A stretch of 64,000 nucleotides of DNA from Zoogloea sp. (lineage in GTDB: Bacteria; Pseudomonadota; Gammaproteobacteria; Burkholderiales; Rhodocyclaceae). Where the stretch lies: contig NZ_JAFLDT010000012.1 in assembly GCF_017302315.1 (NCBI RefSeq), positions 1 to 64,000 of the forward strand, in the 5' to 3' direction. The notes beneath the pieces are model-generated. The model had not been told where the DNA came from and searched no databases. It saw only the letters and a program-made list of their open reading frames with translations. Within the stretch, counting starts at the first letter, position 1. The number at the start of each line of letters is the position of its first letter. Both the position numbers and the translations under genes were made by a program. This document shows, in pieces, positions 5,287-31,195 of this stretch.

Positions 5287-6201
5287 ATGAATCTGCGTTT
5301 TGTCGAAGCCTTTGTCTGGGTGGCTCGCCTGCAGAGCATCACGCGTACGGCGGAAAAACTGTTTCTGACACAATCCGCCGTGTCGAGTCGCATCAATGCA
5401 CTGGAGGAAGAGTTGGGCGTGCCTTTGATCGACCGCCGCGACCGCGTCTTCCGCCTGACCAATGCAGGTAACCGTTTCCTCGACTATGCCGAACGCTTCC
5501 TCGCGCTGCAGCTCGACCTCAAGCGCGAACTGGGTTCCCCGGAACAACTCCCGCTCTCGCTCCGTGTCGGGGGCATCGAGACTGTCTTACACACCTGGAT
5601 GATTCCGCTCATGGAGTCGCTCAAGGGCGACTACCCAAAGATCGAATTCGAACTCAACGTCGAAATGACCCATGTGCTAAACGAGCAGGTCCGGCGGGGT
5701 GGCCTCGATCTTGTTTTCTCGGCGTCTCCAGCTATTGGCCAGGGCATCACGAATGTTCCTTTGGCGCCGATGGAAATGATCTTCGTCGGCCCATCCGAAA
5801 TGGATGGCTCGCGACCGTTAAGCATCCATGCCCTGTTGGAAACGGAACTCCTGACTTTTCAACGCGGCTCCCAGCCGCACGTCGCCTTGTTGGAGTCACT
5901 CGCCAGCGTTAACGTCCGCGACAAACGCGTACACACAATCTCGTCCATATCCGCATTGGTCAAGCTGGTGGAAAGTGAATTCGGACTTGCGACGTTGCCA
6001 CGATCCGCCGCGATTGAATTGCAGAAACGCCATCGCATCGTGCCACTAGAGTGCGAGCTATTGCTCCAGTCGTTGCCGCTGTATGCCAATTACTGGAGTT
6101 ACTCCGGAGCCCCCGAGCTAAATGAAGCGATTAGCAAAGCATTAGCGTTCGCTCGCAGCCCAAAAATGGATGAAAGAGCACTCCCGTTAAAGCCTAATTG
6201 A
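5287..6201 (+). CDS. LysR-type transcriptional regulator
   Basis: The start at 5287 (MNLRFVEAF) gives a 304-aa protein of normal LTTR length; an in-frame upstream extension has no family similarity. The N-terminal winged helix-turn-helix is clear: RTAEKLFLTQSAVSSRINALEEELGVPLIDRR. The remainder is a periplasmic-binding-protein-like effector domain, with LRVGGIETVLHTWMIPLM marking its start. The gene is divergent from the DUF1445-MFS-gdhA-pxpB operon across a 187-bp AT-rich spacer that contains a LysR-type dyad. It probably controls that operon in response to D-glutamate, 5-oxoproline or a related compound, and may repress itself. Confidence 0.93.
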   Translation: MNLRFVEAFVWVARLQSITRTAEKLFLTQSAVSSRINALEEELGVPLIDRRDRVFRLTNAGNRFLDYAERFLALQLDLKRELGSPEQLPLSLRVGGIETVLHTWMIPLMESLKGDYPKIEFELNVEMTHVLNEQVRRGGLDLVFSASPAIGQGITNVPLAPMEMIFVGPSEMDGSRPLSIHALLETELLTFQRGSQPHVALLESLASVNVRDKRVHTISSISALVKLVESEFGLATLPRSAAIELQKRHRIVPLECELLLQSLPLYANYWSYSGAPELNEAISKALAFARSPKMDERALPLKPN

Positions 6202-6287
6202 CAAGCGCTTACAGGATCCATGTATCGTTACGCACACTTCCTCCACCCGCGAAACAAGACTTGTGCCCCTGGGCCCCCGATACCTTT

Positions 6288-6812
6288 GTGAGTCATCCGA
6301 AACAACCCTTTCTGGTTCTTGCTGAACTGTTCCGCCACCACGCTACGGAGTTGACCGGATTTCTCCGCGCGCGCAAAGGGGCTCACGATGCCGAGGATCT
6401 TGTTCAGGACGGCTTTGTCCGCCTGATTCAGGCGAGTGCTGTCGAGGCGCCGGTAAATCCCCGTGCATGGCTCTACCGTACCGTGTCCAACCTCGCCGCC
6501 GACGCCTACGACCATCGTCAGGTGCGCGAGCGTCTTCATGTGGACTTGCCTTGCGTGGCCGATGAGTTTCCCGAACAACCTGTTGACCCGGCCCGTCATA
6601 TCGAAGCCAGGCAGCAGTTACGCCACGTCTGGACGGCCCTTCAGCGCCTGCCCGAACCCTGTCGGCATGCCTTTCTGATGAATCGCCTCGACGGCATGAG
6701 CCAGCGTGCCATTGCGTCCCAGCTCGGCATTGCCGAGAAAACCGTCGAGCGCCATATCCTGCGTGCGATGCAAGCCTGCCGACAGGCTCTGCACTCGCCA
6801 CGAAACAGATGA
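6288..6812 (+). CDS. FecI-family ECF sigma factor
   Basis: A GTG at 6288 gives a start (VSHPKQPFLVLAELFRHH) that fits the family; a TTG at 6198 overlaps the lysR stop and seems too early. Region 2 reads ELTGFLRARKGAHDAEDLVQDGFVRL and region 4 reads GMSQRAIASQLGIAEKTVERHILRAMQACRQAL. Proteins of this group carry RNA polymerase to promoters of ferric-siderophore receptor genes when released by FecR. The stop overlaps the fecR start (ATGA, 6809-6812), so the two are translationally coupled. A TonB receptor with an STN domain follows, completing the surface-signalling trio. Confidence 0.93.
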   Translation: MSHPKQPFLVLAELFRHHATELTGFLRARKGAHDAEDLVQDGFVRLIQASAVEAPVNPRAWLYRTVSNLAADAYDHRQVRERLHVDLPCVADEFPEQPVDPARHIEARQQLRHVWTALQRLPEPCRHAFLMNRLDGMSQRAIASQLGIAEKTVERHILRAMQACRQALHSPRNR

Positions 6813-7843
6813 AGGCGCCAGGCGGCGCCAGCCGTCTTCAGGACGATAAATCAGATATCGACATCATGGCCGCACCCACCCCTGACGACCCTGTGGAGCA
6901 AGCCGCCCTTGACTGGCTGGCTCGCCTTCATTCGGGACGCTGGAGTGCGGACGACGCTGCGGCCCATGCGGCCTGGCTCACTGCCGACCCGTCCCACCAA
7001 GCGGCGTGGCAGCGGGCAGAAAGCCTGTGGCAAGCGCTCGGCGGCTTGCGCCCGTTCGCGGCAGCCGAGCTGAGTGTCCTGCATGCCCGGTCTGCGCCGC
7101 CCATCCATCGTCGCAACCGGGTCGCGGGTCTGGTCTTGGCAAGTATCGCCGTGATGGGGCTCGGCGTCGCCCTGCTGTTGCCTGGCAGCTTCACTTCCGT
7201 GCAGACCAAGCAGACCGTTAGAGGGGAGCATGGGGCTGTCAGCCTGGCCGACGGCTCGCGCATCGAACTCAACACCGATTCGCGCATCGAGATTGATTTC
7301 CGTCTCGATTGCCGTTGCGTGCGCCTTTCCGAAGGGGAGGCGGTCTTCAATGTCGCCCATGGTGACCCGCGTCCCTTCAAGGTGCTGGTCAGTCAGGGCA
7401 CCCTCCGTGACATCGGCACGGCCTTCTGGGTACGTGAGCAGGCCCGGCGGCTTGATGTCGCGGTACTCGAGGGTGAGGTCGAGTTCACGCCGCACGACGG
7501 TGACACCTCCCGTCTTCTCGTTGCTGGCGACCGTCTGTCCTGGGATCAGGCTGGCGAGGCACCTCCGACCCGTTCCCGACCGCTCGATGACCTGCTGGCC
7601 TGGCGCAAGGGGTCGCTGGTTTTTCGGGATGCTCCGCTGTCGGAGGTCATTAACGAATTTGCGCGTTATCACGCTGTCAGCATCGAACTTGATCCCCGCC
7701 TTGCCGACTATCGTTTCTCCGGTCGCCTGCGGAGCGCGGATCTCGAAGGGCTGCTCACGTTGATCCGTTCCGCCTATTCCGTAGAGGTACGCCGCCCCGC
7801 CCCTGGCCGCATCAGCATCGTGCTCAAGTCGGCACGCGGTTAG
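6809..7843 (+). CDS. FecR-type anti-sigma/sigma regulator
   Basis: This is a 344-aa inner-membrane protein. A cytoplasmic N-terminal FecR domain (residues about 28-75, including AALDWLARLHSGRW and WLTADPSHQAAWQRAESLW) binds the sigma factor. One transmembrane helix spans roughly 105-124. The periplasmic FecR domain includes ADGSRIELNTDSRIEIDF and the GTAFWVREQARRLDVAVLEGEV block. An STN-like C-terminal segment is near PLSEVINEFARYHAVSIELD. It relays the state of the downstream TonB receptor to the sigma factor encoded just upstream. The start codon overlaps the sigma stop by 4 bp. Confidence 0.93.
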   Translation: MKAPGGASRLQDDKSDIDIMAAPTPDDPVEQAALDWLARLHSGRWSADDAAAHAAWLTADPSHQAAWQRAESLWQALGGLRPFAAAELSVLHARSAPPIHRRNRVAGLVLASIAVMGLGVALLLPGSFTSVQTKQTVRGEHGAVSLADGSRIELNTDSRIEIDFRLDCRCVRLSEGEAVFNVAHGDPRPFKVLVSQGTLRDIGTAFWVREQARRLDVAVLEGEVEFTPHDGDTSRLLVAGDRLSWDQAGEAPPTRSRPLDDLLAWRKGSLVFRDAPLSEVINEFARYHAVSIELDPRLADYRFSGRLRSADLEGLLTLIRSAYSVEVRRPAPGRISIVLKSARG

Positions 7844-8035
7844 CCGGCCGACTGCAGGGCCCGCATCTTCAAGGCACCTGCATGAACGGGCCATTTCCAA
7901 TGGGGCCGTCTGACTCGCTGAGCTCCAGGGGCTGAGTTCCCGCTGGCTGTTGCGGCACAGTGTCGCACCGTGACGGCAAACGACCCGCTCAACCGTCTTC
8001 CCCGTGAATCGACTGACTACACCGGGAGGAAGACC

Positions 8036-10549
8036 ATGCCAGTACCCCATCGCCACACGCCACTTCGGGCCCTTCGGCGCACCCTGATTGCCAGCCTGGT
8101 GTCCGCCTGCCTGGGCAGCGCCTACGCTGCCGAGCCTGTAAGCATCGACATTGCCCCCCAGCCGCTTGCCGCTGCCGCGGCCAAGTTGGCTGAGCAAAGC
8201 GGCCTCAAGCTGCTCTATGCCGCCGACCTCCTCTCCGGCAAGACCGCACCGCGCATCGCCGGGAAGCTGACGCCACAGCAGGCGCTGGAAAGGCTCCTCG
8301 CCGGCAGCGGGCTGCGTTATCAGTTTGTTACGCCGGATGCGGTGAAGATCGAGATGGCGCCGGCAGACAAGGCCGCTGAACTGTCGCCCGTCGAGGTTCG
8401 CAGCACGGTAGCGCGCGAATCGGACTACCACCGCCCCTACACCAGCATCGCCACCAAGACCGATACCCCCATCCTGCAGACCGCCACCAAGGTTGAAGTG
8501 CTTACCGAGCAGGCCATCCGGGATATGGGCCTGCAAAGCCAGGGTATGAGCCAGGCGATGGCCGCGCTGGGCATTGCGGGCTTGGGCATGGGAGATCTGG
8601 GGGACGTCTATTTCTACCGTGGCTTTCAGACGTCGACCACGCTTTGGAATGGCTTTCGTACCGAGGATATGGGAAGCAACGGCTCCAATGGCGTCAATGG
8701 CCCCGTTTGGATGAACAACGTCGAGCGGATCGAACTGATGCGCGGTGCGTCGAGCATTCTTTATGGCCGGGCGGAGCCTGGAGGCGCTGTCAATATCACC
8801 ACCAAGAAGCCGCGTGATGAATTCGGTGGCTATGCGGACCTGGGTATTGGCACCCATGACAGACGCTGGGCTTCCTTCGATGTCACCGGACCGCTCAACG
8901 CCGACAAGACCCTGCTTTTCCGTCTGAATGCGGGACATGAGGAGTCGGACTCCTGGTACACCTACGGGCCCCGATACCGCTCCGACGGCTTCGCCCCTGC
9001 GCTGGAGTACCGCCTCTCGCCGCAGACCAAGCTCTATTTCGAAGGTCAGTTCCGGAATGTGGAGGGCGGTTCCGATCAGCCCTACATGCCGGTCAGTCCT
9101 GGCACAAACCAGATGATTAACGTCAGTCCCAAAGACACGCTAATGCCCGGCACTTACTCCAAGTTCGAGCAGCGGCGTGCTATGGTGGGCGTGGACCACA
9201 AGTTCAATGACAATTGGTCGCTGACCTGGAAATACATGTACAACAACGTTGATAGTCCGTTGACCCTCGTCAATTGGGCGGTCGGCATGTATTACCCGCC
9301 TGGCACACCCAGTGGCGGTATCGAATGGACGCGCGGACTCACGATCAACAAGAGCGGCCAGAAGACCAATGCAACCCTGCTTGAACTGACCGGAAAAGTC
9401 GAGACGGGATCGTTCAAGCACACCTTGCTATTTGGTATGGACTATTACAATACCAAGACTTTCCAGCATGCAGGCGGTGACTGCTGGTGCAACAATTTTC
9501 CCTATTTCAACCCGCCGCCGTACAGCTACAACCCGTCGGATTTCACGAGCGTCTATCCCAGCGGAAGTCTTTACTACCAGTTCTGGAATCTCGACGAGAA
9601 GGAGTTTGGTCTCTACGCACAGGATCAGATCCAGCTTCCGCATGATGTCCACGTGCTTGTGGGCGGTCGCTATCAGCGCCAGAAGGAATTGAGCAAGGTC
9701 ATCTATCCTGATTTCCCCGATTCCAATCAGGATCTTCCGTACAAGCGCAATCTCTTCCTGCCGCGCTTCTCCGTGCTGTGGCAACCGGTTTCCACTGTCA
9801 GTCTCTACTACAGCTACACCGAGAACCAAGGTGCCAGTTCGGGGCTGCAGTATCCCGGAACACCGATCAAACCCGAGTTTTCCAGGCAGCATGAGCTTGG
9901 TGCCAAGTTCAGTCTTCTGGAGAGTCGACTGATCGCATCGGCAGCCCTGTTCAGTCTGACCAAGGAGAACATCGCAACCGCCGATGTCTTTCATCCCGGC
10001 TACAACCTTGGTGTGGGCCGGGTCAAGAGCACCGGTTACGAGTTGAGCCTGCAAGGGGCCCTCACCGAGAAATGGAATGTGCTGAGCACTTACAACTATG
10101 CTCGTCCGTATGTCGAGGAGGGGACTGACGGAGGGGCCAATTCGTCGCAACCCGTGGCCATCACGGCGGGCTCGTTGCTGCCCTATTTTTCGCAACACTC
10201 GTTGAGCTTGTTGACCAGCTACCGCCTGCCTGCGGGCTGGAAGATCGGTGGTGGCTACAACTGGTTCTCGGCGCCCATCATGGATGAGAACTCCACCGTG
10301 AAGACTCGCGATTACCAGATTGCTTCTGCATTTGTTGCCTACGAAACCAAGATCGCAGGCAAGAAGGCAAGCTTTCAAATGAATGTCGATAATCTCTTCA
10401 ACGAGAAATATCTCCTGTTCCAGGGCGACTTCGGCGTGGCGTACGCCAATGATCCGACGCTTGGCGGGGGCTACACCGGCGGCAACTACGTTGGCGGCAA
10501 TTGGGGGCAGCCACGTACCGCCAAACTTGGCATGCGCGTCGAGTTCTGA
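8036..10549 (+). CDS. TonB-dependent siderophore receptor with N-terminal STN signalling domain
   Basis: The ATG at 8036 is preceded by a strong GGGAGGA site. The 837-aa precursor has a signal peptide ending near residue 31 (GSAYA). An STN domain follows at about 36-90 (SIDIAPQPLAAAAAKLAEQSGLKLLY), then a plug beginning near TILQTATKVEVLTEQAIRD with VERIELMRGASSILYGRAEPGGAVN. The beta-barrel ends in the aromatic C terminus TAKLGMRVEF. The STN domain marks it as a transducer that contacts FecR when its ligand is bound. The architecture resembles the FhuE/FpvA ferric-siderophore group; the ligand cannot be read. It is 2 bp upstream of a DJ-1/YHS gene. Confidence 0.93.
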   Translation: MPVPHRHTPLRALRRTLIASLVSACLGSAYAAEPVSIDIAPQPLAAAAAKLAEQSGLKLLYAADLLSGKTAPRIAGKLTPQQALERLLAGSGLRYQFVTPDAVKIEMAPADKAAELSPVEVRSTVARESDYHRPYTSIATKTDTPILQTATKVEVLTEQAIRDMGLQSQGMSQAMAALGIAGLGMGDLGDVYFYRGFQTSTTLWNGFRTEDMGSNGSNGVNGPVWMNNVERIELMRGASSILYGRAEPGGAVNITTKKPRDEFGGYADLGIGTHDRRWASFDVTGPLNADKTLLFRLNAGHEESDSWYTYGPRYRSDGFAPALEYRLSPQTKLYFEGQFRNVEGGSDQPYMPVSPGTNQMINVSPKDTLMPGTYSKFEQRRAMVGVDHKFNDNWSLTWKYMYNNVDSPLTLVNWAVGMYYPPGTPSGGIEWTRGLTINKSGQKTNATLLELTGKVETGSFKHTLLFGMDYYNTKTFQHAGGDCWCNNFPYFNPPPYSYNPSDFTSVYPSGSLYYQFWNLDEKEFGLYAQDQIQLPHDVHVLVGGRYQRQKELSKVIYPDFPDSNQDLPYKRNLFLPRFSVLWQPVSTVSLYYSYTENQGASSGLQYPGTPIKPEFSRQHELGAKFSLLESRLIASAALFSLTKENIATADVFHPGYNLGVGRVKSTGYELSLQGALTEKWNVLSTYNYARPYVEEGTDGGANSSQPVAITAGSLLPYFSQHSLSLLTSYRLPAGWKIGGGYNWFSAPIMDENSTVKTRDYQIASAFVAYETKIAGKKASFQMNVDNLFNEKYLLFQGDFGVAYANDPTLGGGYTGGNYVGGNWGQPRTAKLGMRVEF

Positions 10550-11622: not shown

Positions 11623-11880
11623 ACGCGTCGTCTGACGGTCGATACGGTCTCTCCTGTGGGGGCGACTTCAGTCGCCCATCCGCGCGTTGATCACCGACAT
11701 ACCCTTGATCTCAGCCCGCGGGCGACTGAAGTCGCCCCTACAGTCCCTCCAGCCGCCGTCTGAGCCTCCCACGAACCCCTTCAGCTTCACCCATCGGGTG
11801 ATACCGCCGGTGGAAGGCAAACCCGCGTCAGCAATGGGCTTGCGTCTGGTTCGGGGAGGGCAACAGAGGAAAATAGGTTC
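11623..11880. repeat. Dispersed ~250-bp repeat with palindromic GGCGACTTCAGTCGCC arms, copy 1
   Basis: This fills the 413-bp gap after the DJ-1/YHS gene. The core (11657-11743) consists of two inverted palindromic arms, GGCGACTTCAGTCGCC at the left and GGCGACTGAAGTCGCC at the right, separated by about 40 bp containing CGCGTTGATCACC. The flanking ~135 bp to the right (CCCCTTCAGCTTCACC, GGGTGAT and onward) and ~35 bp to the left are also shared with copy 3 near 30.8 kb. The core alone recurs at 26099-26183. No coding potential is seen. It looks like a non-autonomous mobile or REP-type element. Confidence 0.75.
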
Positions 11881-14449: not shown

Positions 14450-15787
14450 TTAGCGCGTGGCTTCGAGAGCCGCCGCCGCCTGCACCAGTCCCCCAAATAC
14501 CGAGTCTGCGACATGTGTGGAGAAGCCCGGCGGCAACCCGGCCTGCACCGCTGAAATTACGGCAGGCGTGCGCGCGAGGATGTCCTCAATGATTGGCTCG
14601 GCAGAGACGTCATAGCCGACCTTCTGCGCAGTGCTGTTGAAGTGGCGGCGCTGGATGCCGAACATCTCGTAGTGCTTATTCTGCCCGTGCAGGGCCATGG
14701 CCAGCTTGATTTCGTGTGGCGACCATTGGTTCGGGCCGTCGCCGAGCACCGGGTAGGCGGACATCACGTCGTAGAGCGGGGTCAGCTGGAAGCGCCCGCG
14801 CGGGAGTATCCGCAGGCTGAAGTTCTTGGCATGCCCGTCCGGTGCCCGCAGGAGCCAGAACAGGATTTGTGCGGCCATCAGCGTGCGCATGTCGCCCTCG
14901 GCGTTCACCGAGTGGCGCAATGTAGAGAACAAGGCTTTCAGGCCCGGGCCGCCTTCGTTCTCGTACTTGCGCAGCGGTGAGCAGCCCTCCACCTGGCAGA
15001 AATCCTCCTGAGGCAAACGCATCAGCCACTTTCCATTCGGCGCGATGCGCCGGTCGAAGCGTTGCACCACGAGCACGCGTTGTTCGCCGAAGGTCGCAAT
15101 GTCGGCGTCGGCGACGTCCAGGCCGTACGCCTTCAGCAACTTGAGGCACAGCCACTCGTTGTCCACCGAGGTGCGGAAATCGGCCCGCCGGCCCCCCATC
15201 AGGCCGAGGGGGAGCTTGACGATGTGCGTGGTCGGCGTCGCCCCCCGGGGCTTCTGCCATCGGCCATCCCACCACAGAAAGGCGGTCTTCTCCTGGGCGC
15301 CTGCGAGCGAGATACGGAAGTCGTCGTCGGGATCCTGGCTGGATCCGAAGCTTCGAGGCGATACCGTCTCGATGAGGTGCCGTTCGATGTCTTCATCGGA
15401 GAGTGGCGTCCCTTCGATGCGATCAAAGCTGCTTGGCGCCTCGTCCTCACCCAGGATCTGTACGGCCCCCACGCAATCGCGGCCGATGGCCTTCAACAGA
15501 TCGAAGGCATCAGTCGAGCCCGTCCGGAAGCGCTCGGCGACGCGCTTGCGGATGGCATCGCTGTCGGGCAGCAGGTTATCGAAGTAGTTGTAGACCTTTT
15601 CGCCCTTGAGCGGCAGCTTGTCCAGGGTAAAGGGCAGCGAGATGGACAGTGGCCGGCCGACATCGGCTTTGATCCAGTCGTCGTCGTACTGCAGCTGCAT
15701 GTCTCCGCGCGCCGGGAGGGTCCAGCGGCCGACACGCATGCCGTTGGTCCAGATCGACAGGGAGCGGCTGTGTGATTTGCGGCCCAT
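14450..15787 (-). CDS. hipA: HipA-family serine/threonine kinase toxin
   Basis: The ATG at 15787 gives a 445-aa protein of normal HipA length. The N-subdomain motif is followed by the ATP-contact loop ISLAGAQEKTA. The catalytic loop reads APDGHAKNFSLR, with TPLYDVMSAYP carrying the metal-binding aspartate. HipA kinases phosphorylate aminoacyl-tRNA synthetases and stall growth; the partner HipB neutralises them and represses the operon. hipB is immediately upstream with a single base between its stop and this start. The last ~20 residues (VQAAAALEATR) are ordinary. No truncation is seen. Confidence 0.93.
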   Translation of the reverse strand: MGRKSHSRSLSIWTNGMRVGRWTLPARGDMQLQYDDDWIKADVGRPLSISLPFTLDKLPLKGEKVYNYFDNLLPDSDAIRKRVAERFRTGSTDAFDLLKAIGRDCVGAVQILGEDEAPSSFDRIEGTPLSDEDIERHLIETVSPRSFGSSQDPDDDFRISLAGAQEKTAFLWWDGRWQKPRGATPTTHIVKLPLGLMGGRRADFRTSVDNEWLCLKLLKAYGLDVADADIATFGEQRVLVVQRFDRRIAPNGKWLMRLPQEDFCQVEGCSPLRKYENEGGPGLKALFSTLRHSVNAEGDMRTLMAAQILFWLLRAPDGHAKNFSLRILPRGRFQLTPLYDVMSAYPVLGDGPNQWSPHEIKLAMALHGQNKHYEMFGIQRRHFNSTAQKVGYDVSAEPIIEDILARTPAVISAVQAGLPPGFSTHVADSVFGGLVQAAAALEATR

Positions 15788-15788
15788 G

Positions 15789-16049
15789 TCACCAGTCCGT
15801 CTCGGGCGCAGCCGGCGCCATGCCCTTGCGTGACGCGAGCGTGAGCTCAAGCTCGAGCGCCGAGCACCAGGCCAGCAATTGCGCGACGCTCAGATCCTGG
15901 GCGTTCAGCTCCAGATGCGATACCCGGGACTGACTTAGACCGATGCGACTGGCCAGGGCCGACTGGGACATCTTTCGTCCTTTGCGCGCCTGTTGCAACA
16001 CATGGCCCAGTTGCGAAGCGGTCACCAGCACCTGATGGGGAGAGGGCAT
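15789..16049 (-). CDS. hipB: HipB-family antitoxin, XRE-type DNA-binding protein
   Basis: This 86-aa protein is a single helix-turn-helix domain: LGHVLQQARKGRKMSQSALASRIGLSQSRVSHLE. A short C-terminal tail ends APETDW, which resembles the HipB tail that docks in HipA. It is first in the hipBA operon. Upstream (16055-16123) lie repeated TTAYCTGA/TCAGRTAA inverted repeats, which are the expected autoregulatory operators. Confidence 0.92.
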   Translation of the reverse strand: MPSPHQVLVTASQLGHVLQQARKGRKMSQSALASRIGLSQSRVSHLELNAQDLSVAQLLAWCSALELELTLASRKGMAPAAPETDW

Positions 16050-16174: not shown

Positions 16175-16372
16175 TCAAGCTGAATCCGGCCTACACCGAT
16201 GCGGCAGCAACGCCCCGATCCGACTCTGGGGCTGAGTCGGCAAGCGGGCGAGAACATCCTTCAAGTAGGCGTGGGGCTCATGCCCGTTGAGGTGCGCCGA
16301 CCGGATCAGACTTATGATCGCCGCCGCCTGCTTGCCGGCGTGCAGCGAGCTGCTCGACCCGCGGCGCCCCAC
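16175..16372 (-). mobile_element. Remnant of an IS66-family transposase C terminus
   Basis: The frame encodes the characteristic C-terminal end of IS66 TnpC: SLHAGKQAAAIISLIRSAHLNGHEPHAYLKDVLARLPTQ followed by GALLPHRC. Only about 60 residues remain and no intact tnpA/B/C or terminal repeats are visible nearby. It lies between hipBA and the ubiquitin-like gene cluster and is evidence of past insertion at the edge of that cluster. Confidence 0.75.
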
Positions 16373-16672: not shown

Positions 16673-17056
16673 TCATCGAATTGATTTCATATCCTGGTGA
16701 CCACTGTCAGGACACCATGAAACAACCCCATTGTGTATCCAGAAATGGCAGCCACAGCTGTTGGTCATACGTATCGAAGGCGAGACGGTGGGGCAGTCAA
16801 GATAGTCCAGCTTCACCTTCCATCTTGGGCTGCGCTGAGCGCTGAGTGATAGCTGCACTTTCTGGCCACAGCCGCCGGGGCAGCGAAAGCATGCCCACTT
16901 GTCGTGTGTCGCGTCCTTAACCAGGACCAAGACGCCCTCGGCAAGCTCTTGGGAAGACGGATGTCGGGGCATGACCTCGCACACAAATGCCGGTCCTTTG
17001 ATCCATCCTAGGGCGACAAAGGCGGTTCGAAGCCAGGTCTTCAGCATCATTTTCAC
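16673..17056 (-). CDS. Small cysteine-rich DUF6527-like protein of the ubiquitin-like cluster
   Basis: The frame starts with GTG at 17056, overlapping the E1-JAB stop by 4 bp (ATG alternatives at 17050 and 17047). The 127-aa product has a central zinc-ribbon-like pattern, CFRCPGGCG (C56, C59, C63), then C88 and C101-C103 with C115 (CGCHFWIHNGVVSWC). This matches the small family (DUF6527) that computational studies place beside bacterial E1/E2/ubiquitin genes. Its job is unknown; metal binding and a protein-protein or substrate-adaptor role are inferences. It is the last gene of the leftward operon. Confidence 0.65.
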   Translation of the reverse strand: MKMMLKTWLRTAFVALGWIKGPAFVCEVMPRHPSSQELAEGVLVLVKDATHDKWACFRCPGGCGQKVQLSLSAQRSPRWKVKLDYLDCPTVSPSIRMTNSCGCHFWIHNGVVSWCPDSGHQDMKSIR

Positions 17057-18456
17057 CCCACCCTATCCAGGAATGGATCGACATCTGCCCGACCCCAATA
17101 CATGTGGTCAATGCAGATTGGGCAGTCCGGGCTCTGATGGGTGCCGGGACGGTGATCCAAAAATCGGTCGAACCGGCGGGTCTGATTCCAGAGCCATCCC
17201 TCCGTGCCCCGATAGCCGATCAGGCCTTGAATGAGTTCATTGACCGCCATGCAGGCTGTTTCGGTCGTGAATGTCACGACCCCCGGTGCGGGGTTGCCGC
17301 TGCCCCGTACATAGGCTTCGCGCTTCTGGCGCTCGTATTGTTCCGGCTGAGCCCGTTTCAGGGCCTCCTCCCGTGCAGTGACCGGATTAACGACACCCCT
17401 GCAAATTAGGCATGGGGCACCGGCCGACAACACGGTGACCCGGCCTGACAGTTCGCGGAAACCACTCTCCATAGCCGGGTCGATGGCCAGACCTACGTCG
17501 ATGACCGGGGTGAGATAGAAATAGGCGAACCGATTGAGAAAAAGACGGCCGTCATGGTCATCAGTACATCCAAATAGGACATCGCATGACTTGAGCGCGT
17601 CCCGGCAAAGTAGATCACCTGCCCACGCTTGCATGGGGACAACCCGAGTGCCGATGGACCAGCCGGTTATTTCCGCCGCTAGGACATCGACCTTGGGCCG
17701 CATGGCATCCGCGTCCGAACGACGGGCACCGTGCAACCGGTTCAGGTTGGTCGCCTCAGCCCTGTCATCGTCGATCAGCACTAGATTTCCAACCCCCAGC
17801 CTGGCAAGAAGTGTCGCCACGGCGCTTCCCGTGCCACCGCAGCCAACTACCCCAACTTTGAGATGGCGGAGTTGGTGGTTGAGGGCGTCACCGAAAGCAA
17901 GGGCCTGGCGCGAGAAGACCTCGGACGCCACCTTAGTCACTTCACGATGTATGACCAGATGCCTCCCCACAACACGCAGGGAGTGATGGGGCAAAGCCGT
18001 AGCGGAGTCCACCCATAGTCTGGCCCGGATGGAACTGTCACTGGCCAACAGGATGCTTAGCAGCTGCGTGCCGGTTCCATTTCTGTTCTGGGCCAGGCGG
18101 TGGAGTTCACGCTCGTTCCGATCATCCTGGTCCGAGAACTGCTCCGGGCCCCTGGGGTGGGTATGCACTATACCGACGACTAGACCTTCCGCCTGTGCGC
18201 GTTTCAATAGTTTCACGTAGGTTTTGGTCGACCAGGTCACATGGTTCCCACTGGCAGAAACGCGGTCCTCCGGAGGTACGGCCAAGACCTCGTGGGTAGT
18301 CAGCCTTTGGCGGCACGTGCGGTCCCAGGGATCGCTATGTATCCTGGCGCTGCCGCATAGGACATAGGCAGAGGCCTCCGTTCCGTCGTCCCGCCCCAGT
18401 AATTCGCGTAGATGAGCGAGATGACTTTCTTGAAGGGTCAGGTCGAACTGGGTCAT
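17053..18456 (-). CDS. Fusion of JAB/JAMM deubiquitinase-like domain and ThiF/E1 activating domain
   Basis: This 467-aa protein has two domains. The N-terminal JAB/MPN+ domain has the metalloprotease signature HTHPRGPEQFSDQD (H98, H100, S108, D111) with E27 as probable catalytic acid. It could process or remove a ubiquitin-like tail. Residues about 198-450 are an E1/ThiF adenylation domain: VGVVGCGGTGSAVATLLARLG (205-210 loop), LIDDD (228-231), NLNR (237-240), K255 and D299. Two CxxC pairs (C349/C352 and C445/C448) should hold a structural zinc. Which cysteine, if any, carries the thioester (C402 is a candidate) is unclear. Both ends overlap neighbours by 4 bp, indicating tight coupling to the E2 and DUF6527 genes. 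Confidence 0.88.
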   Translation of the reverse strand: MTQFDLTLQESHLAHLRELLGRDDGTEASAYVLCGSARIHSDPWDRTCRQRLTTHEVLAVPPEDRVSASGNHVTWSTKTYVKLLKRAQAEGLVVGIVHTHPRGPEQFSDQDDRNERELHRLAQNRNGTGTQLLSILLASDSSIRARLWVDSATALPHHSLRVVGRHLVIHREVTKVASEVFSRQALAFGDALNHQLRHLKVGVVGCGGTGSAVATLLARLGVGNLVLIDDDRAEATNLNRLHGARRSDADAMRPKVDVLAAEITGWSIGTRVVPMQAWAGDLLCRDALKSCDVLFGCTDDHDGRLFLNRFAYFYLTPVIDVGLAIDPAMESGFRELSGRVTVLSAGAPCLICRGVVNPVTAREEALKRAQPEQYERQKREAYVRGSGNPAPGVVTFTTETACMAVNELIQGLIGYRGTEGWLWNQTRRFDRFLDHRPGTHQSPDCPICIDHMYWGRADVDPFLDRVG

Positions 18457-18833
18457 GCCGCCTCCGCCAAAGCCATCTCAATCCGCTTCAACATGGTCCA
18501 GATGCCGTCTACGCCCGGTCGCCAGTCATTGTTGTGTCGCGACCACCGCTGCCAGCTCCGGCCCGCGAAACTGACGGCCTGGTCGGCTGCGCGGGGATAG
18601 CGGTTGTTACAAGCCAGATGCAGCCACGGTATGGCGTAGAACATATCGGGCGCCACATCCGGGTATGCACCCGGCAGCAAGATCATAATGTCCGCGTGTG
18701 GCGCATCGAAACGACCAGCCGGCAGGGCGAATTGCTTGAACACGACTGCCTTCTGGCCGTTTTCTTGATGTTCCTCGAAGGCCAATCCACGGTCTTGCAG
18801 ATAGCGGCTGCACTTCATAGGGAGAATGGCCAT
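18453..18833 (-). CDS. E2-like ubiquitin-conjugating fold protein (Prok-E2_E type)
   Basis: The 126-aa protein fits the short bacterial E2 families found beside E1-JAB fusions. It shows the UBC core pattern ADIMILLPGAYPDVAPDMFYAIPWL, then LACNNRYPRAA and the conserved block RSWQRWSRHNNDWRPGVDG. Only two cysteines exist, C8 and C75, so C75 (LAC) is the natural candidate for the active site; the canonical HPN motif is missing. H100 in the WSRH motif may assist. It starts 3 bp after the multi-ubiquitin stop and its own stop overlaps the E1-JAB start by 4 bp. A role in transferring the ubiquitin-like protein to targets is inferred. Confidence 0.8.
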   Translation of the reverse strand: MAILPMKCSRYLQDRGLAFEEHQENGQKAVVFKQFALPAGRFDAPHADIMILLPGAYPDVAPDMFYAIPWLHLACNNRYPRAADQAVSFAGRSWQRWSRHNNDWRPGVDGIWTMLKRIEMALAEAA

Positions 18834-18836
18834 GGC

Positions 18837-19397
18837 TCAGCCTTCCGTCGTCTGCATGAGGCCGGTGAAGAACCATTCCACCCCTGGGGCGGCAAGATCG
18901 ACCAGTACATCATTTGCAATCAGACGGTCTTCAGCTCCAGGCTGTCGGACTTCCTGCCACACGCCGTATGTCGCCAAGTCAACTCTGGCCAGTTTCTTCA
19001 GGGAGGCCCCCGAGATCAGGGGGCCGCCCCATTCCTGGCGCGTACCGTCTAGCTCGAAGCGGAAAGACTTGTCACTACGGAAGACAAGGAATTTTTCGAC
19101 GCCAGCCGACCGGAGATCGGTGGTTTCATCGAGCCGCAGCTCCTCAAGCTCGCCATTCCGGAGCATCTGGAAGACCAGATGCTCTTCCACCGGCTTGAAA
19201 CCGCCCTCCAGCAGTACTTGCCGACCACTAGGGATCGGGTCATGGATTACGGTTTGGACGAACTCCAGACGGTCGTTGCCGATGGCGATCCGGTAAGGAC
19301 CATGTGGGCGCACGGGGCTCCCCCCCCTCACGCAGGCCTGCACATCCACAGCATCGTCCTCGAGCCGGCCATGATCTTCGTTCACCTGTACACTCAT
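18837..19397 (-). CDS. Multi-ubiquitin domain protein (two tandem beta-grasp domains)
   Basis: The ATG at 19397 is preceded by AAGGAG. The 186-aa product has a short acidic leader and two tandem ubiquitin-like domains, about 34-108 (YRIAIGNDRLEFVQTVI... ending KFLVFRSD) and 109-181 (SFRFELDGTRQEWGG... ending VEWFFTGL). It stops at MQTTEG, so a glycine (G186) is already the last residue. A ready-made C-terminal glycine means no tail trimming would be needed before E1 adenylation. The domain pair and the E2, E1-JAB and DUF6527 genes downstream define a bacterial ubiquitin-like conjugation operon. This gene is first, facing the divergent sigma-factor operon. Confidence 0.85.
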   Translation of the reverse strand: MSVQVNEDHGRLEDDAVDVQACVRGGSPVRPHGPYRIAIGNDRLEFVQTVIHDPIPSGRQVLLEGGFKPVEEHLVFQMLRNGELEELRLDETTDLRSAGVEKFLVFRSDKSFRFELDGTRQEWGGPLISGASLKKLARVDLATYGVWQEVRQPGAEDRLIANDVLVDLAAPGVEWFFTGLMQTTEG

Positions 19398-19555
19398 GTC
19401 ATACTCCTTCAGAAGTGTCCCAGGGTTAGTCCCCGGGGCTTTCAGGAGGTAGGACTCTCCAGCAAGCGGTTCTGGACGCTGGAAAAAAAATATTTCTGGC
19501 CGCGTCCACGAAAGCGGTCTGGGGAGTCCAACAACAAAGGAGGATTTGCTTACAT
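19398..19555. promoter_or_regulatory. Divergent promoter region between ubiquitin-like operon and sigma-factor operon
   Basis: This 158-bp spacer separates the two divergent operons. It contains strong ribosome-binding sites on both sides (AAGGAG for the ubiquitin gene, AAAGGAGG near 19536 for the sigma gene). Its centre is GC-rich with dyads around CCAGGGTTAGTCCCCGGGG, followed by an A-tract near 19481-19490. No clear sigma70 hexamers are evident. Recognition by the encoded sigma factor is plausible but unproven. Confidence 0.45.
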
Positions 19556-20146
19556 ATGGCTGTTGACGAGGAAGACCCCGACCGCCTGGCCCCCCATGAG
19601 GTAGAGACTGCGCTTAGTCAGATGGATGGAGCAGACTGGGCTCGTGCTGAGCGCATGGCACGGGCCTTGGTCTGCGGTGTGCACGAAATCACATCAGAAG
19701 ATTTGTTGCAGGAGGCGCTGACCAAGCTCCTGTCGGGAGAGCGACGTTTCCCCCGGAGTAGCCATCCACTGGTGGTCCTGAAAACTGCTATGCATAGCGA
19801 GGCGAGCAATTTACGTAGACGAGCTATCAAGGGCCCCATTGATGGACATGTGACCGTGACGGCTGACTATGATGACGAGTTGGACGAGCCTTTCGGCCCC
19901 CAGGTCGAGGCCGTGGACTCCAGAACTCCCGAAGATGCCGTAGTGGCCAAGGACCAGCTTGAATACATCTACAAATGCCTTGAAGGCGATGAAGAGCTGG
20001 AGCTGGTGGCCATGGCTTGGGCCGATGGACTCAGAGGTCAGGACGCGGCGGATGCCGCAGGCCTCGATATGAAGGCGTATGACGCTGCGAGAAAACGGCT
20101 GGACCGGAAACTCAGCAGTCCTGCGCTGGGCCGGAGGGAAGCATGA
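19556..20146 (+). CDS. Sigma-70-family (ECF-like) sigma factor beside the ubiquitin-like operon
   Basis: The 196-aa protein has a region-2-like segment, WARAERMARALVCGVHEITSEDLLQEALTKLLSGERRF followed by HSEASNLRRRAIKGP. After an acidic linker comes a region-4-like helix set with ELELVAMAWADGLRGQDAADAAGLDMKAYDAARKRL. It is a divergent member, lacking the usual FecI or RpoE signatures. An AAAGGAGG site precedes the ATG. Its stop overlaps the next start (ATGA at 20143-20146). Position suggests that it activates the divergent ubiquitin-like operon and perhaps its own operon. It may be held in check by the following small protein or released by the metallopeptidase; this is inference. Confidence 0.7.
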   Translation: MAVDEEDPDRLAPHEVETALSQMDGADWARAERMARALVCGVHEITSEDLLQEALTKLLSGERRFPRSSHPLVVLKTAMHSEASNLRRRAIKGPIDGHVTVTADYDDELDEPFGPQVEAVDSRTPEDAVVAKDQLEYIYKCLEGDEELELVAMAWADGLRGQDAADAAGLDMKAYDAARKRLDRKLSSPALGRREA

Positions 20147-20535
20147 GCAAACATACAACCGACCTGAATAATTTCTTCGAAAGTTACTTTCATGAGCTTC
20201 GCACAATGTTGGACGAAGATGTGCTTGACGCCGAGGCTGCACAGACGGTTAAGGCACGTGCGCTGGAGCGACTCAAGGCGGCCAAGGCCGAAGCCGGGCG
20301 TCGTCGTCTGGCAATAGCCAGGGCAAACATGCGGGACACCGCACCGTATCGAGCGGAAGGTGGTGAAGACGTTTCTCCTGCGGCCGCCAGGTCTTATGTG
20401 GCCCGGGCGGCGAATGATGCGCGCTACACCATGGCTGCCCGGAAGCTGGACGAAATGACGGATGAAGATGTCCTGCGTCTGTACCGGCAGCTCCGAATGC
20501 TTGAGTCTGACAGCGAGGCTGATGACGAAACATGA
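20143..20535 (+). CDS. Small charged helical protein, candidate sigma partner
   Basis: This 130-aa protein is of unrecognised family. It is predicted almost entirely helical, with an Ala/Lys/Arg/Glu-rich coiled-coil-like stretch (QTVKARALERLKAAKAEAGRRRLAIARANMR). The C-terminal half holds SYVARAANDARYTMAARKLDEMTDEDVLRLYRQLRMLE and an acidic tail. It overlaps the sigma gene upstream and the metallopeptidase gene downstream by 4 bp each, so equal translation of the three is likely. Being sandwiched between a sigma factor and an ImmA/IrrE protease makes an anti-sigma or protease-substrate role attractive. No signal peptide or membrane helix is present, so it should be cytoplasmic. Confidence 0.6.
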   Translation: MSKHTTDLNNFFESYFHELRTMLDEDVLDAEAAQTVKARALERLKAAKAEAGRRRLAIARANMRDTAPYRAEGGEDVSPAAARSYVARAANDARYTMAARKLDEMTDEDVLRLYRQLRMLESDSEADDET

Positions 20536-21332
20536 CGCCAGGACAGAAGGCGGAAGCCCGCATAGCGGAGCTGGGCATTGTCGACCCCAGGGATATCGAC
20601 ATTGAGGCGATAGCTTTCGATGCGGGGATCCGGGTTGAGTATGAACAGCTGAGAGGCTGCGCGGCGACGCTGGTCGGTCTGGGTAACAGGGCAATCGCAA
20701 CCATCAGGCCCTCTGGCAGTTCCGGCCGAGATCGCTTCTCCATCGGGCATGAGCTTGGGCACTGGGAGCTGCACCGTGGTCAATCGTTCCAATGTAGGGC
20801 GGACAATCCATCCGACAACCTGGTCTCCAGTACAAAGCTTGAGATTGAGGCTGATGAATACTCCACCCATATCTTGATGCCATCAGCACTGTTCCATCCG
20901 GCTGTCAAGTCCTTCAATTGGCCCAGCATCAAGGAAATCGATGAGGTGGCTGGTCTTTTCAGCACCAGCCTCCTGGCGACTACCCTACGGTTGGCAAAGA
21001 TCGACGCTCTACCTGTGCTGGTGACTTGCTACACATCGCAAGGACGACGCTGGCATGTGGCCGCGCCGCATGTGCCCACGCGCTGGTGGCTCAAGGAGCA
21101 ACTCGATGAAGACAGCTTTGCCTATGATCTGCTGTCGGCCGGAAGGCCCTGCGACTCCCCCAGAAAACAATCCGCGGATGCCTGGTTTGCAAATGATGAT
21201 GCTGAGGAGTTTGAGATCCTGGAGCAGTGCTATTCCCCGATACCTGGCCAAGCCATCGTGGTCTTGTACCTCAGTGATGCGGAGATGTTTGAGCGAGGAT
21301 ACGATCCTGCGGTAAGGAAGCGACGGAAGTAA
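20532..21332 (+). CDS. ImmA/IrrE-family metallo-endopeptidase
   Basis: The 266-aa protein carries the zinc-protease motif HELGHWELH (H73, E74, H77) and the downstream acidic ligand region EIEADEYSTHILMP (about 104-117), the standard ImmA/IrrE layout. The N-terminal part and a C-terminal ~100-residue extension (from about 165, including PTRWWLKEQLDEDSFAYDLL) are less conserved. ImmA cleaves the ICEBs1 repressor and IrrE cleaves DdrO, both to switch on genes under stress. As third gene with a sigma factor and a small helical protein, it is a good candidate to cut an inhibitor and turn on the adjacent ubiquitin-like operon. Confidence 0.88.
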   Translation: MTPGQKAEARIAELGIVDPRDIDIEAIAFDAGIRVEYEQLRGCAATLVGLGNRAIATIRPSGSSGRDRFSIGHELGHWELHRGQSFQCRADNPSDNLVSSTKLEIEADEYSTHILMPSALFHPAVKSFNWPSIKEIDEVAGLFSTSLLATTLRLAKIDALPVLVTCYTSQGRRWHVAAPHVPTRWWLKEQLDEDSFAYDLLSAGRPCDSPRKQSADAWFANDDAEEFEILEQCYSPIPGQAIVVLYLSDAEMFERGYDPAVRKRRK

Positions 21333-26000: not shown

Positions 26001-26098
26001 GGCTCCATTGGGGGCGCTCATCCCGGAAGCCGCGGTTTGCGCGACCTCTGCAAGTCCGTGCTGCCTCACCTGCAGGGGCGACTCGTAGGGGCGGCTCG

Positions 26099-26183
26099 TA
26101 GGGGCGACTTCAGTCGCCCATCCGCGCGTTGATCACCGGCAAACCTTTAATCGAAGCCCGCGGGCGACTGAAGTCGCCCCTAC
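26099..26183. repeat. Dispersed repeat with palindromic GGCGACTTCAGTCGCC arms, copy 2 (core only)
   Basis: Core copy of the element at 11.7 and 30.8 kb: left arm GGGGCGACTTCAGTCGCCC, CGCGTTGATCACCGGC in the middle, right arm GGGCGACTGAAGTCGCCCC. The right flank shared by the other copies is absent. A lone arm (GGTGACTTCAGTCGCCCA) follows at about 26229-26246. The whole gap from 26001 to 26358 between convergent genes holds no coding sequence; the arms may also act as a bidirectional terminator. Confidence 0.75.
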
Positions 26184-30770: not shown

Positions 30771-31195
30771 TGAGCGTCGTATGACGCGCGATGCAGTCTC
30801 TCCGTAGGGGCGACTTCAGTCGCCCATCGTGCGTTGATCGCCGGCATGCCCTTGATCGAGGTCCGCGGGCGACTGAAGAGGGTGTTGTAAAACCATTTTG
30901 CACAGCCGAGACACTCGCGTTATGAGATCAAAAACTGCATTTAGCTCGCAAAAACATGGCGTTTTCGGGTGACTGAACCGCGTTTGGTGCCGAGTCCATC
31001 GTGAATGCCTGGTTGGCGACGAGTTTTGCGACACCCTCTGAAGTCGCCCCTACAGTCCCTCCGGCCGCCCTCAGTGCGTCCCATAAACCCCTTCAGCTTC
31101 ACCTATCGGGTGATCCGGACAAGGGAGCCCAACCCCCCGTCAGCATTGGGTTTGCGGCTGGTTCAAGGAGGACAAAGGAGGAAAGCAGGATCAAT
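30771..31195. repeat. Dispersed ~250-bp repeat, copy 3, split by an inserted element
   Basis: The left part (30771-30878) and right part (31038-31195) together equal the repeat at 11623-11880. They carry the same arms (GGCGACTTCAGTCGCC), GCGTTGATCG centre and right-flank block with CCCCTTCAGCTTCACC, TATCGGGTGAT and GCGGCTGGTTC. The right palindromic arm is interrupted after GGGCGACTGAAG by a 159-bp insertion, then resumes as CTGAAGTCGCCCC. No coding potential. Confidence 0.75.
30879..31037. mobile_element. MITE-like element (159 bp) with imperfect terminal inverted repeats and 6-bp target duplication
   Basis: The left end reads AGGGTGTTGTAAAACC and the right end, reverse-complemented, AGGGTGTCGCAAAACT; 13 of the first 15 bases agree. 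The element is flanked on both sides by CTGAAG (30873-30878 and 31038-31043), which occurs once in the uninterrupted repeat copies, so it is a true target-site duplication. It has no open frame that could be a transposase. It must have been mobilised in trans by an unidentified transposase. Confidence 0.75.

Follow-up and report, generated by a model that had tools for sequence, protein, structure and literature searches.

A sigma factor, small helical protein and CapP-type peptidase trio as a proposed swappable transcription switch beside ubiquitin-like and other immune operons

We analyzed a 64,000-nucleotide stretch of a Zoogloea sp. genome (contig NZ_JAFLDT010000012.1, positions 1 to 64,000; hereafter the window), in which two operons diverge from a 158-bp gap. 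The left arm is a Bub-type operon for ubiquitin-like conjugation (Multi_ubiq, Prok-E2_E, JAB-ThiF E1 and DUF6527). The right arm, hereafter the trio, codes for a protein related to sigma-70 factors, a small helical protein and a CapP-type ImmA/IrrE peptidase. Our reading, to which we assign a probability of roughly 70%, is that the trio constitutes a self-contained, swappable, sigma-based transcription switch, i.e., a sigma variant of the CapP controllers that activates rather than de-represses. The trio is conserved, its peptidase keeps its metal ligands, its divergent region carries a paired promoter-like element found in exact form nowhere else in the genome, and the genes across the gap, hereafter the cargo, have been exchanged. 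The right arm is real, conserved and more general than the original prediction, made from the letters of the window, had proposed.

Conservation of the trio and of a paired two-box element

The genomes were scanned with a profile of CapP only, using one genome per species, and the best 80 of 203 relatives were kept, a choice that favors close kin. The complete trio, with sigma factor, small protein and CapP in a row, was present in 71 of these 80 loci. A contig end truncates four of the nine others (L055, L074, L093, L116), two have a sigma gene and no recognized small protein (L110, L119), and three are taken up below. A sigma gene accompanies CapP in 73 of the 76 loci not cut by a contig end. 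The commonest junction is a 4-bp overlap (sigma/small protein, 60/80; small protein/CapP, 39/80), in a count for which start codons were picked near the junction, which favors this result. The original prediction would have failed if the two arms were neighbors in this genome alone. Instead, the trio adjoins a ubiquitin-like arm in 20 of 82 labeled loci, and these counts rule out an accident of a single genome.

A tblastn search of plasmids with the sigma factor returned 14 records, all alphaproteobacterial, and the surroundings were read for nine of them. In the eight annotated records a small gene follows the sigma gene and is itself followed by an ImmA/IrrE gene, except in L004 (the gene is in two pieces in L007); the ninth, L003, which has no annotation, shows the same gene order by its open reading frames (ORFs). 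The divergent side of the plasmid loci holds genes of the cyclic oligonucleotide-based antiphage signaling system (CBASS), multiubiquitin and ThiF genes, or DUF3892 or DUF2188 genes. In L004 (6947-9453), sigma factor and small protein stand beside a Bub operon, with a 478-aa protein that has no Pfam match in the place expected for CapP. No match was obtained by tblastn with the small protein against plasmids or with the sigma factor against phages; among viral contigs, the whole trio was found at 1 of 46 CapP relatives. Judging from record titles, the trio loci presumably belong to Pseudomonadota, Desulfobacterota, Acidobacteriota, Verrucomicrobiota, Planctomycetota and a Fimbriimonadaceae bacterium.

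The divergent region contains a two-box element, present face to face on both strands, which is new here. Motif tests were run on 81 of the 82 loci, one being too short. With a leave-one-out matrix, a face-to-face pair was found in 53 of 81 loci, whereas neither the 875 control windows taken from other parts of these loci nor the 405 shuffled sequences contained one. A de novo search that fixed no letters recovered a perfect 13/13 face-to-face pair in 30 of the 81 loci, upstream of the sigma gene; agreement between arms is what this search seeks by design, so its control is the 0 of 486 pairs in dinucleotide shuffles. GGAC is present in the second box of 27 of the 30 perfect pairs (exceptions, L058, L063 and L115), and the family form is approximately TATGCG, 16 to 17 nucleotides, TCGGACA(T). 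The variant in the window, GRCTC-N15-TGGACG, is exact on both strands in the window, L042 and L043 and on one arm in L044, and in no other of the 81 loci. When this variant was scanned with up to two mismatches, 28 of 81 loci had it on either strand, near the background of 0.26 per region.

Promoter boxes at -35 and -10, held at fixed spacing upstream of the factor's own gene, mark extracytoplasmic function (ECF) sigma systems, and the two-box element agrees with this arrangement. The first box scores at 103 of 188 cores, and in 81 of these 103 its distance deviates from the mode by at most one base, compared with 7 of 39 shuffled flanks, in a test whose seeds were chosen at the expected place and which therefore favors that offset. 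The distance between the arms is variable, from 0 to 54. Near-fixed spacing within an arm together with variable distance between arms fits two promoters better than a rigid palindromic operator, for which the opposite would be expected. The exact element occurs twice in the 4.5-Mb genome of the window, both times in this gap, once per strand; matches with up to two mismatches number 64 genome-wide, and 150 for the reversed control. L163, a locus from another family of the same taxonomic order that was fetched after the element had been found, has the trio opposite cargo of E1 and DUF6527; its divergent region shows a similar element pair, read by eye, with one arm one base longer.

Exchange of cargo beside the trio

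The cargo was labeled at 82 loci as Bub (20), CBASS (19), DUF3892/DUF2188 genes only (18), 6A-MBL (7), Pycsar (1), other E1 (2) or other (15), and both the last class and the DUF-only class stay in the cargo counts. The profiles used for labeling were derived from these loci themselves, and representative proteins were examined against Pfam and NCBIfam. These checks confirmed SMODS, SAVED, Prok-E2_A, Multi_ubiq with Prok-E2_E, and DUF6527, and further an AAA protein with a weak TRIP13-like lid, SMODS, patatin and guanylate cyclase. The CAP12/Pycsar TIR and E2 domains were also confirmed, and both 6A-MBL proteins scored above NCBI cut-offs; five of the 19 CBASS labels (L086, L087, L088, L097, L119) rest on CD-NTase matches weaker than 1e-15. 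By this tally the trio adjoins immune operons, as CapH+CapP does.

A quick tree built from 79 CapP proteins requires at least 37 changes of cargo label. The minimum possible is 6, the mean of shuffled labels is 47.7, and 0 of 200 shuffles gave a value as low. With the four large named kinds only (62 rows), the changes number at least 23. Cargo has thus been exchanged often, yet not at random.

A switch specific to ubiquitin-like cargo is rejected, because the trio also stands opposite CBASS, 6A-MBL, Pycsar and DUF3892/DUF2188 cargo, and because none of the five other genomes with a Prok-E2_E gene above cut-off uses it. The original prediction, which saw in the right arm a dedicated switch for conjugation, therefore survives in one part. 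The idea of a switch agrees with the exact elements, one per strand at this gap only, and with the 20 ubiquitin-like arms; the restriction to conjugation is contradicted by the other cargo.

The small DUF2188/DUF3892 genes are the sole recognized divergent cargo in the 18 loci counted above (for example L009, L010, L013, L045 to L047, L065, L091, L092, L102, L108, L114 and L120), and such genes also adjoin Bub or CBASS cargo in some loci. In L043 (3-6866), the trio lies opposite proteins of 312 aa (no Pfam match), 117 aa and 1718 aa.

Proteins of the trio, proposed mechanism and alternatives

The window sigma protein is probably an ECF-like sigma-70 factor, to judge from its family profile and predicted fold, and would as such bind RNA polymerase. 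A profile of its family finds Mycobacterium tuberculosis SigH in the PDB at 2.1e-7 with both sigma domains covered, and NCBIfam gives weak sigma-70 matches for the window protein itself (1.1e-4 and 1.8e-4). The AlphaFold2 model, from 62 sequences, has a mean predicted local distance difference test score (pLDDT) of 87.6, with helices at 13-92 and 125-187 and a low-confidence linker between them. The rows returned by Foldseek for this model are mostly sigma factors, one of them at E<=0.001, with low template modeling scores (<=0.36 by query length). Model, SigH profile and Foldseek thus agree on the ECF arrangement, in which a linker connects a sigma2 and a sigma4 domain. Single family members match Pfam Sigma70_r2 in 15 of 72 cases and r4_2 in 3 of 72. 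Separately, a second gene for an ECF-like sigma factor lies at 6198-10549 of the window together with one more gene and that of an STN-domain TonB receptor, a group resembling FecI/FecR-type signaling; the ORF at 6369-6749 matches the trio sigma profile at 5.2e-6.

The model of the small protein (mean pLDDT 85.2) consists of helices, apart from a loop at 91-106, and the family is acidic, with a median net charge of -6. This loop bears a conserved motif, A98-[AF]99-R100, which 73 of 77 rows have at the aligned positions; R100 itself is kept in 76 of 77. PADLOC labels the window protein capH with a weak score of 4e-6, and its capH model matches 47 of the 77 small proteins, at best at 1.9e-8. No small protein (0/77) shows the XRE helix-turn-helix (HTH) of canonical CapH, HTH_3-type Pfam matches at E 0.01 being absent from all 77, three of which have weak matches to MCM_C, a winged HTH. 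A profile of 19 canonical CapH proteins finds no small protein at E 0.01, and hhalign aligns the two families over 24 C-terminal columns at E 0.46, for which we claim no homology. The PADLOC capH model PDLC04142 has matches in 218 of 249 genomes and in 14 of 14 controls, and so is unfit for counting controllers. Its best matches elsewhere are XRE HTH proteins, 19 of 20 of which have a CapP relative scoring far lower (1e-13 to 1e-25) on the profile of trio CapP; the model may mix two protein families.

The third protein matches Pfam Peptidase_M78 at 1.2e-9 and PADLOC capP at 3.7e-55, and its family profile matches the solved CapP structure 7t5t at 1.2e-14. The zinc ligands H73, E74, H77 and E104 are kept in 80 of 80 rows. 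Neither a SAVED nor a Lon match appears for it in the Pfam or PADLOC listings.

In the mechanism that we propose, the small helical protein would act at rest as an anti-sigma factor and hold the sigma factor. The CapP-type peptidase would sense a signal, by analogy single-stranded DNA (ssDNA) from phage attack or DNA damage, and would then cut the small protein in the loop bearing A-[AF]-R. Once free, the sigma factor would recruit RNA polymerase to a pair of promoters that face each other within the 158-bp gap, and this one event would turn on both the operon of the sigma factor itself, as positive feedback, and the ubiquitin-like conjugation operon, for which a role in defense is presumed. 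We infer these steps from two precedents. According to the available portion of PMC12751052, CalpL cuts the anti-sigma factor CalpT and thereby releases CalpS; in the available portion of PMC10904395, cleavage of DdrO by PprI/IrrE is stimulated by ssDNA and falls in the loop E116-L117-R118-G119, of which R118 is needed, and a model places the loop Arg beside ssDNA.

The trio resembles CalpL-CalpT-CalpS of type III CRISPR in combining a protease, a (here proposed) anti-sigma factor and a sigma factor for an immune transcriptional response. CalpL, as far as the source excerpt describes it, is a Lon protease with a SAVED domain that binds cyclic tetra-adenylate (cA4), whereas the trio protease is a zinc ImmA/IrrE enzyme, and the trio adjoins many kinds of cargo. 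With PprI-DdrO of Deinococcus it shares an IrrE-type peptidase, which in the same partial account of PMC10904395 cuts a loop of the C-terminal domain; DdrO, however, is a DNA-binding repressor, and the proposed substrate in the trio is an anti-sigma factor. With CapH+CapP it shares a CapP-type peptidase with all zinc ligands and a small partner beside immune operons (Bub, CBASS). Canonical CapH is an XRE HTH repressor, in contrast to the trio, where a sigma factor, nearly always present in the 80 sampled loci, and a helical protein with no recognized HTH stand instead; the trio switch should therefore activate and not de-repress. CapK+CapS is likewise a controller, of two genes, beside Bub operons. 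It is described in the part of the literature at hand as DNA-damage-responsive and similar to anti-sigma kinases and their antagonists, but it consists of a kinase and a STAS-winged-HTH repressor, with no sigma factor or protease in that description.

The known Bub and CBASS controllers CapW, CapH+CapP and CapK+CapS are described as repressor systems in the accessible text of PMC13373217, which does not name a sigma trio beside Bub operons. A search of the open-access literature turned up no paper that links a sigma factor to CapP or ImmA/IrrE in immunity. We are inclined to go further than the switch itself and to see in the trio a portable immune sigma system. It would be a mobile activator cassette with a bidirectional promoter of its own, comprising an ECF-like sigma factor, an anti-sigma factor open to cleavage and a zinc protease that senses damage. 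This cassette would have been joined many times to Bub, CBASS, 6A-MBL and Pycsar cargo across several phyla and would turn it on with positive feedback, in contrast to the known CapP systems, which relieve repression. If the proposal is true, a sigma activator cassette would be a second control logic, beside repressors, for keeping toxic immune operons off and switching them on, and it would explain how one signal can start a defense operon and amplify itself. The combination of sigma factor, small protein, CapP and paired boxes would also be a sequence tag for unrecognized immune operons, such as those with DUF3892/DUF2188 and unnamed cargo.

Several observations weigh against the proposed switch, for which all the evidence is computational. 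The window sigma protein has no Pfam match of its own and is far from known sigma factors, and a loose region-2.2 motif is present in 33 of 80 family members. For the small protein, Foldseek returned six rows, all at E>4 and none a structural match, and profile matches in the PDB were judged spurious, with no detectable link to a known anti-sigma factor. The element is missing as a matrix pair at threshold from 28 of 81 loci, among them the near neighbor L042 despite its exact window variant on both strands; a copy with one mismatch lies on another contig of the window genome, and the placing of seeds in the spacing test counts here too. CapP occurs with neither sigma factor nor small protein in L050, L075 and L098, and sigma factor and small protein occur with no CapP match in L004. 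The sigma family is rare: among 369 genomes of the class, a strong match (9.6e-36) was found in one apart from the window's own, and the weak matches in 41 of them are probably ordinary ECF factors. Finally, the loci are related by descent, so that the counts are not independent events.

These points leave room for other explanations, the least improbable of which, though still unlikely, retains repressor logic. The sigma-like protein, no longer working with RNA polymerase, would, by itself or together with the small protein, repress both operons at the two-box elements until cleavage by CapP lifts repression as in CapH+CapP. Known CapP relatives do act through repressors, in the available accounts of CapH+CapP (PMC13373217) and PprI-DdrO (PMC10904395), and the capH label on 47 of 77 small proteins would agree. 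However, the boxes have a sigma-like spacing, near-constant inside each arm while the distance from arm to arm varies, and this suits a pair of promoters better than it does a palindromic operator; the model predicts both sigma domains, and the small proteins lack the canonical XRE HTH and are missed by the CapH profile. It is more doubtful still that CapP acts on the sigma factor itself, or that the small protein is a helper or stabilizer of the sigma factor rather than its inhibitor. A small acidic helical protein could be a partner as well as a substrate, but its most conserved part is the A-[AF]-R loop in its C-terminal part (73/77), which resembles the E-L-R-G loop of DdrO in place and in its Arg (PMC10904395, as available), and the sigma linker has no comparably conserved site, E108 alone reaching 60% among residues 84-125.

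A trio that behaves independently as a mobile or selfish unit, with genes of defense islands as incidental neighbors, seems quite improbable to us. Frequent cargo change, the 15 of 82 loci with unrecognized neighbors and the different genes that a congener has at the window slot all speak for it; against this, one element in the window points into the cargo operon, and elements are paired on both strands in 53 of 81 loci. Least credible of all is ordinary CapH+CapP regulation with a sigma label due to weak similarity, which would place the locus among the Bub operons already known to have CapW or CapH+CapP (219/544 in the accessible part of PMC13373217). PADLOC does call the two downstream genes capH and capP, yet the capH model finds its best matches elsewhere in XRE HTH proteins, 19 of 20 with far lower-scoring CapP relatives, and the SigH match, the sigma-like model and the sigma gene in 73 of 76 uncut loci strongly contradict a canonical CapH+CapP, which the missing XRE HTH also leads us to reject. 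The switch with an activating sigma factor thus remains our preferred reading.

The ubiquitin-like arm and the genomic setting

The left arm encodes ubiquitin-like (Ubl) protein, E2, E1 and JAB-type protease in one operon by Pfam, and the same operon is found in L042 and others. With Multi_ubiq, Prok-E2_E, JAB-E1 and DUF6527 it is alike in kind to Bub operons, and the controller alone differs. The C-terminal QTTEG of the Ubl protein is common to the window and L042; in some loci Ubl and E2 are fused into one protein, which implies processing. The nucleotide-binding residues G205, G208, G210, R240, K255 and D299 of the E1, and also S108, are kept in 19 of 19 rows, and H100 in 16 of 19, in an alignment that leaves out L115 (<330 aa). 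DUF6527 proteins from Bub loci keep C59, C63, C101 and H104 in 19 of 19 rows.

The E2 proteins have RWSRH (at 96) in 11 of 11 aligned Prok-E2_E rows and no conserved catalytic cysteine among them. An E2 with a conserved thioester cysteine is thus rejected, as the commonest Cys column reaches 4 of 11 rows and C75 of the window is not shared. L115 has a divergent E2 protein with no RWSRH and is outside this alignment. The original prediction depended on E1 and E2 both having the required active-site residues in a family alignment, which was borne out for the E1 and not for the E2. Published work on Bub reportedly describes oxyester, not thioester, intermediates, and our guess is that the Ser of RWSRH would suit such an intermediate.

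A reverse search found a Prok-E2_E match in 9 of 398 genomes of the phylum, 6 of them above cut-off, including that of the window. The trio is in none of the five others (0/5), one Prok-E2_E locus (L154) has CapH+CapP as its controller, and two more have a different gene set, so several controllers serve Bub arms. In these two (L151, 7691-12432; L152, 862-5666), genes for proteins of 261/267, 182/200 and 1137 aa lie upstream of multi-ubiquitin-E2, JAB-E1 and DUF6527, and the 1137-aa protein of L151 combines an IrrE-like domain, a UvrD helicase and a PD-(D/E)XK nuclease; the set is possibly a further Bub controller or sensor. No controller was identified in the Prok-E2_E loci L153 and L155. In the available part of PMC13373217, CapW or CapH+CapP accompanies 219 of 544 Bub operons and CapK+CapS 59, and Bub is not shown to give protection against phage.

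ORF positions upheld the original description of the seven genes (Table 1), with their strands, the 4-bp overlaps at DUF6527/JAB-E1, JAB-E1/E2, sigma/small protein and small protein/peptidase, the 3-bp gap between E2 and multi-ubiquitin genes and the 158-bp spacer. The protein names given there agree with Pfam, PADLOC and NCBIfam profiles, PADLOC adding the CapP and weak capH labels, and the claimed IS66 remnant was recovered as well.

Table 1. Features of the divergent locus, with positions in the window
Feature	Position	Strand	Evidence and remarks
IS66 C-terminal element (remnant)	16178-16372	-	8.1e-16
DUF6527 zinc-ribbon-like protein	16673..17056	-	127 aa, GTG start; Pfam PF20137 2.4e-21
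JAB-E1 fusion	17053..18456	-	467 aa; Pfam ThiF 6.1e-38 and Prok-JAB 1.7e-9
E2-like protein, Prok-E2_E	18453..18833	-	126 aa; PF14462 6.9e-48
Multi-ubiquitin-like protein, two Ubl domains, C-terminal end QTTEG	18837..19397	-	186 aa; Multi_ubiq PF14452 7.2e-28, two stretches
Rightward two-box promoter-like element GGACTC-N15-TGGACGC, facing sigma gene	19452..19479	+	Exact genome match; family-wide element
Leftward element copy GGACTC-N15-TGGACGC, facing multi-ubiquitin gene	19502..19529	-	Exact genome match; face-to-face pair
ECF-like sigma-70 factor (probable)	19556..20146	+	196 aa; AlphaFold2 model, Foldseek, family profile to SigH
Small helical protein, proposed anti-sigma factor and CapP substrate	20143..20535	+	130 aa; AlphaFold2, loop motif A98-[AF]99-R100
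CapP-type ImmA/IrrE metallopeptidase	20532..21332	+	266 aa; PADLOC capP, 7t5t profile match, metal ligands

A close CapP is present in 0 of 22 congeners, some of them incomplete, the best identity being 25-28%; one of these distant proteins, in G762, belongs to a canonical CapH+CapP with a CD-NTase. Congener G757 matches the window on either side of the locus at 91-95% and carries other genes in the slot. The locus is therefore sporadic, which, together with the IS66 remnant, fits horizontal gain. A HipB-HipA-like toxin-antitoxin pair (14450-16049, minus strand) adjoins the IS66 remnant and the Bub arm. Three stretches of approximately 75 to 100 bp in the window (11655-11743, 26084-26183 and 30804-30878) correspond to a common set of repeat copies in congeners G750 and G752.

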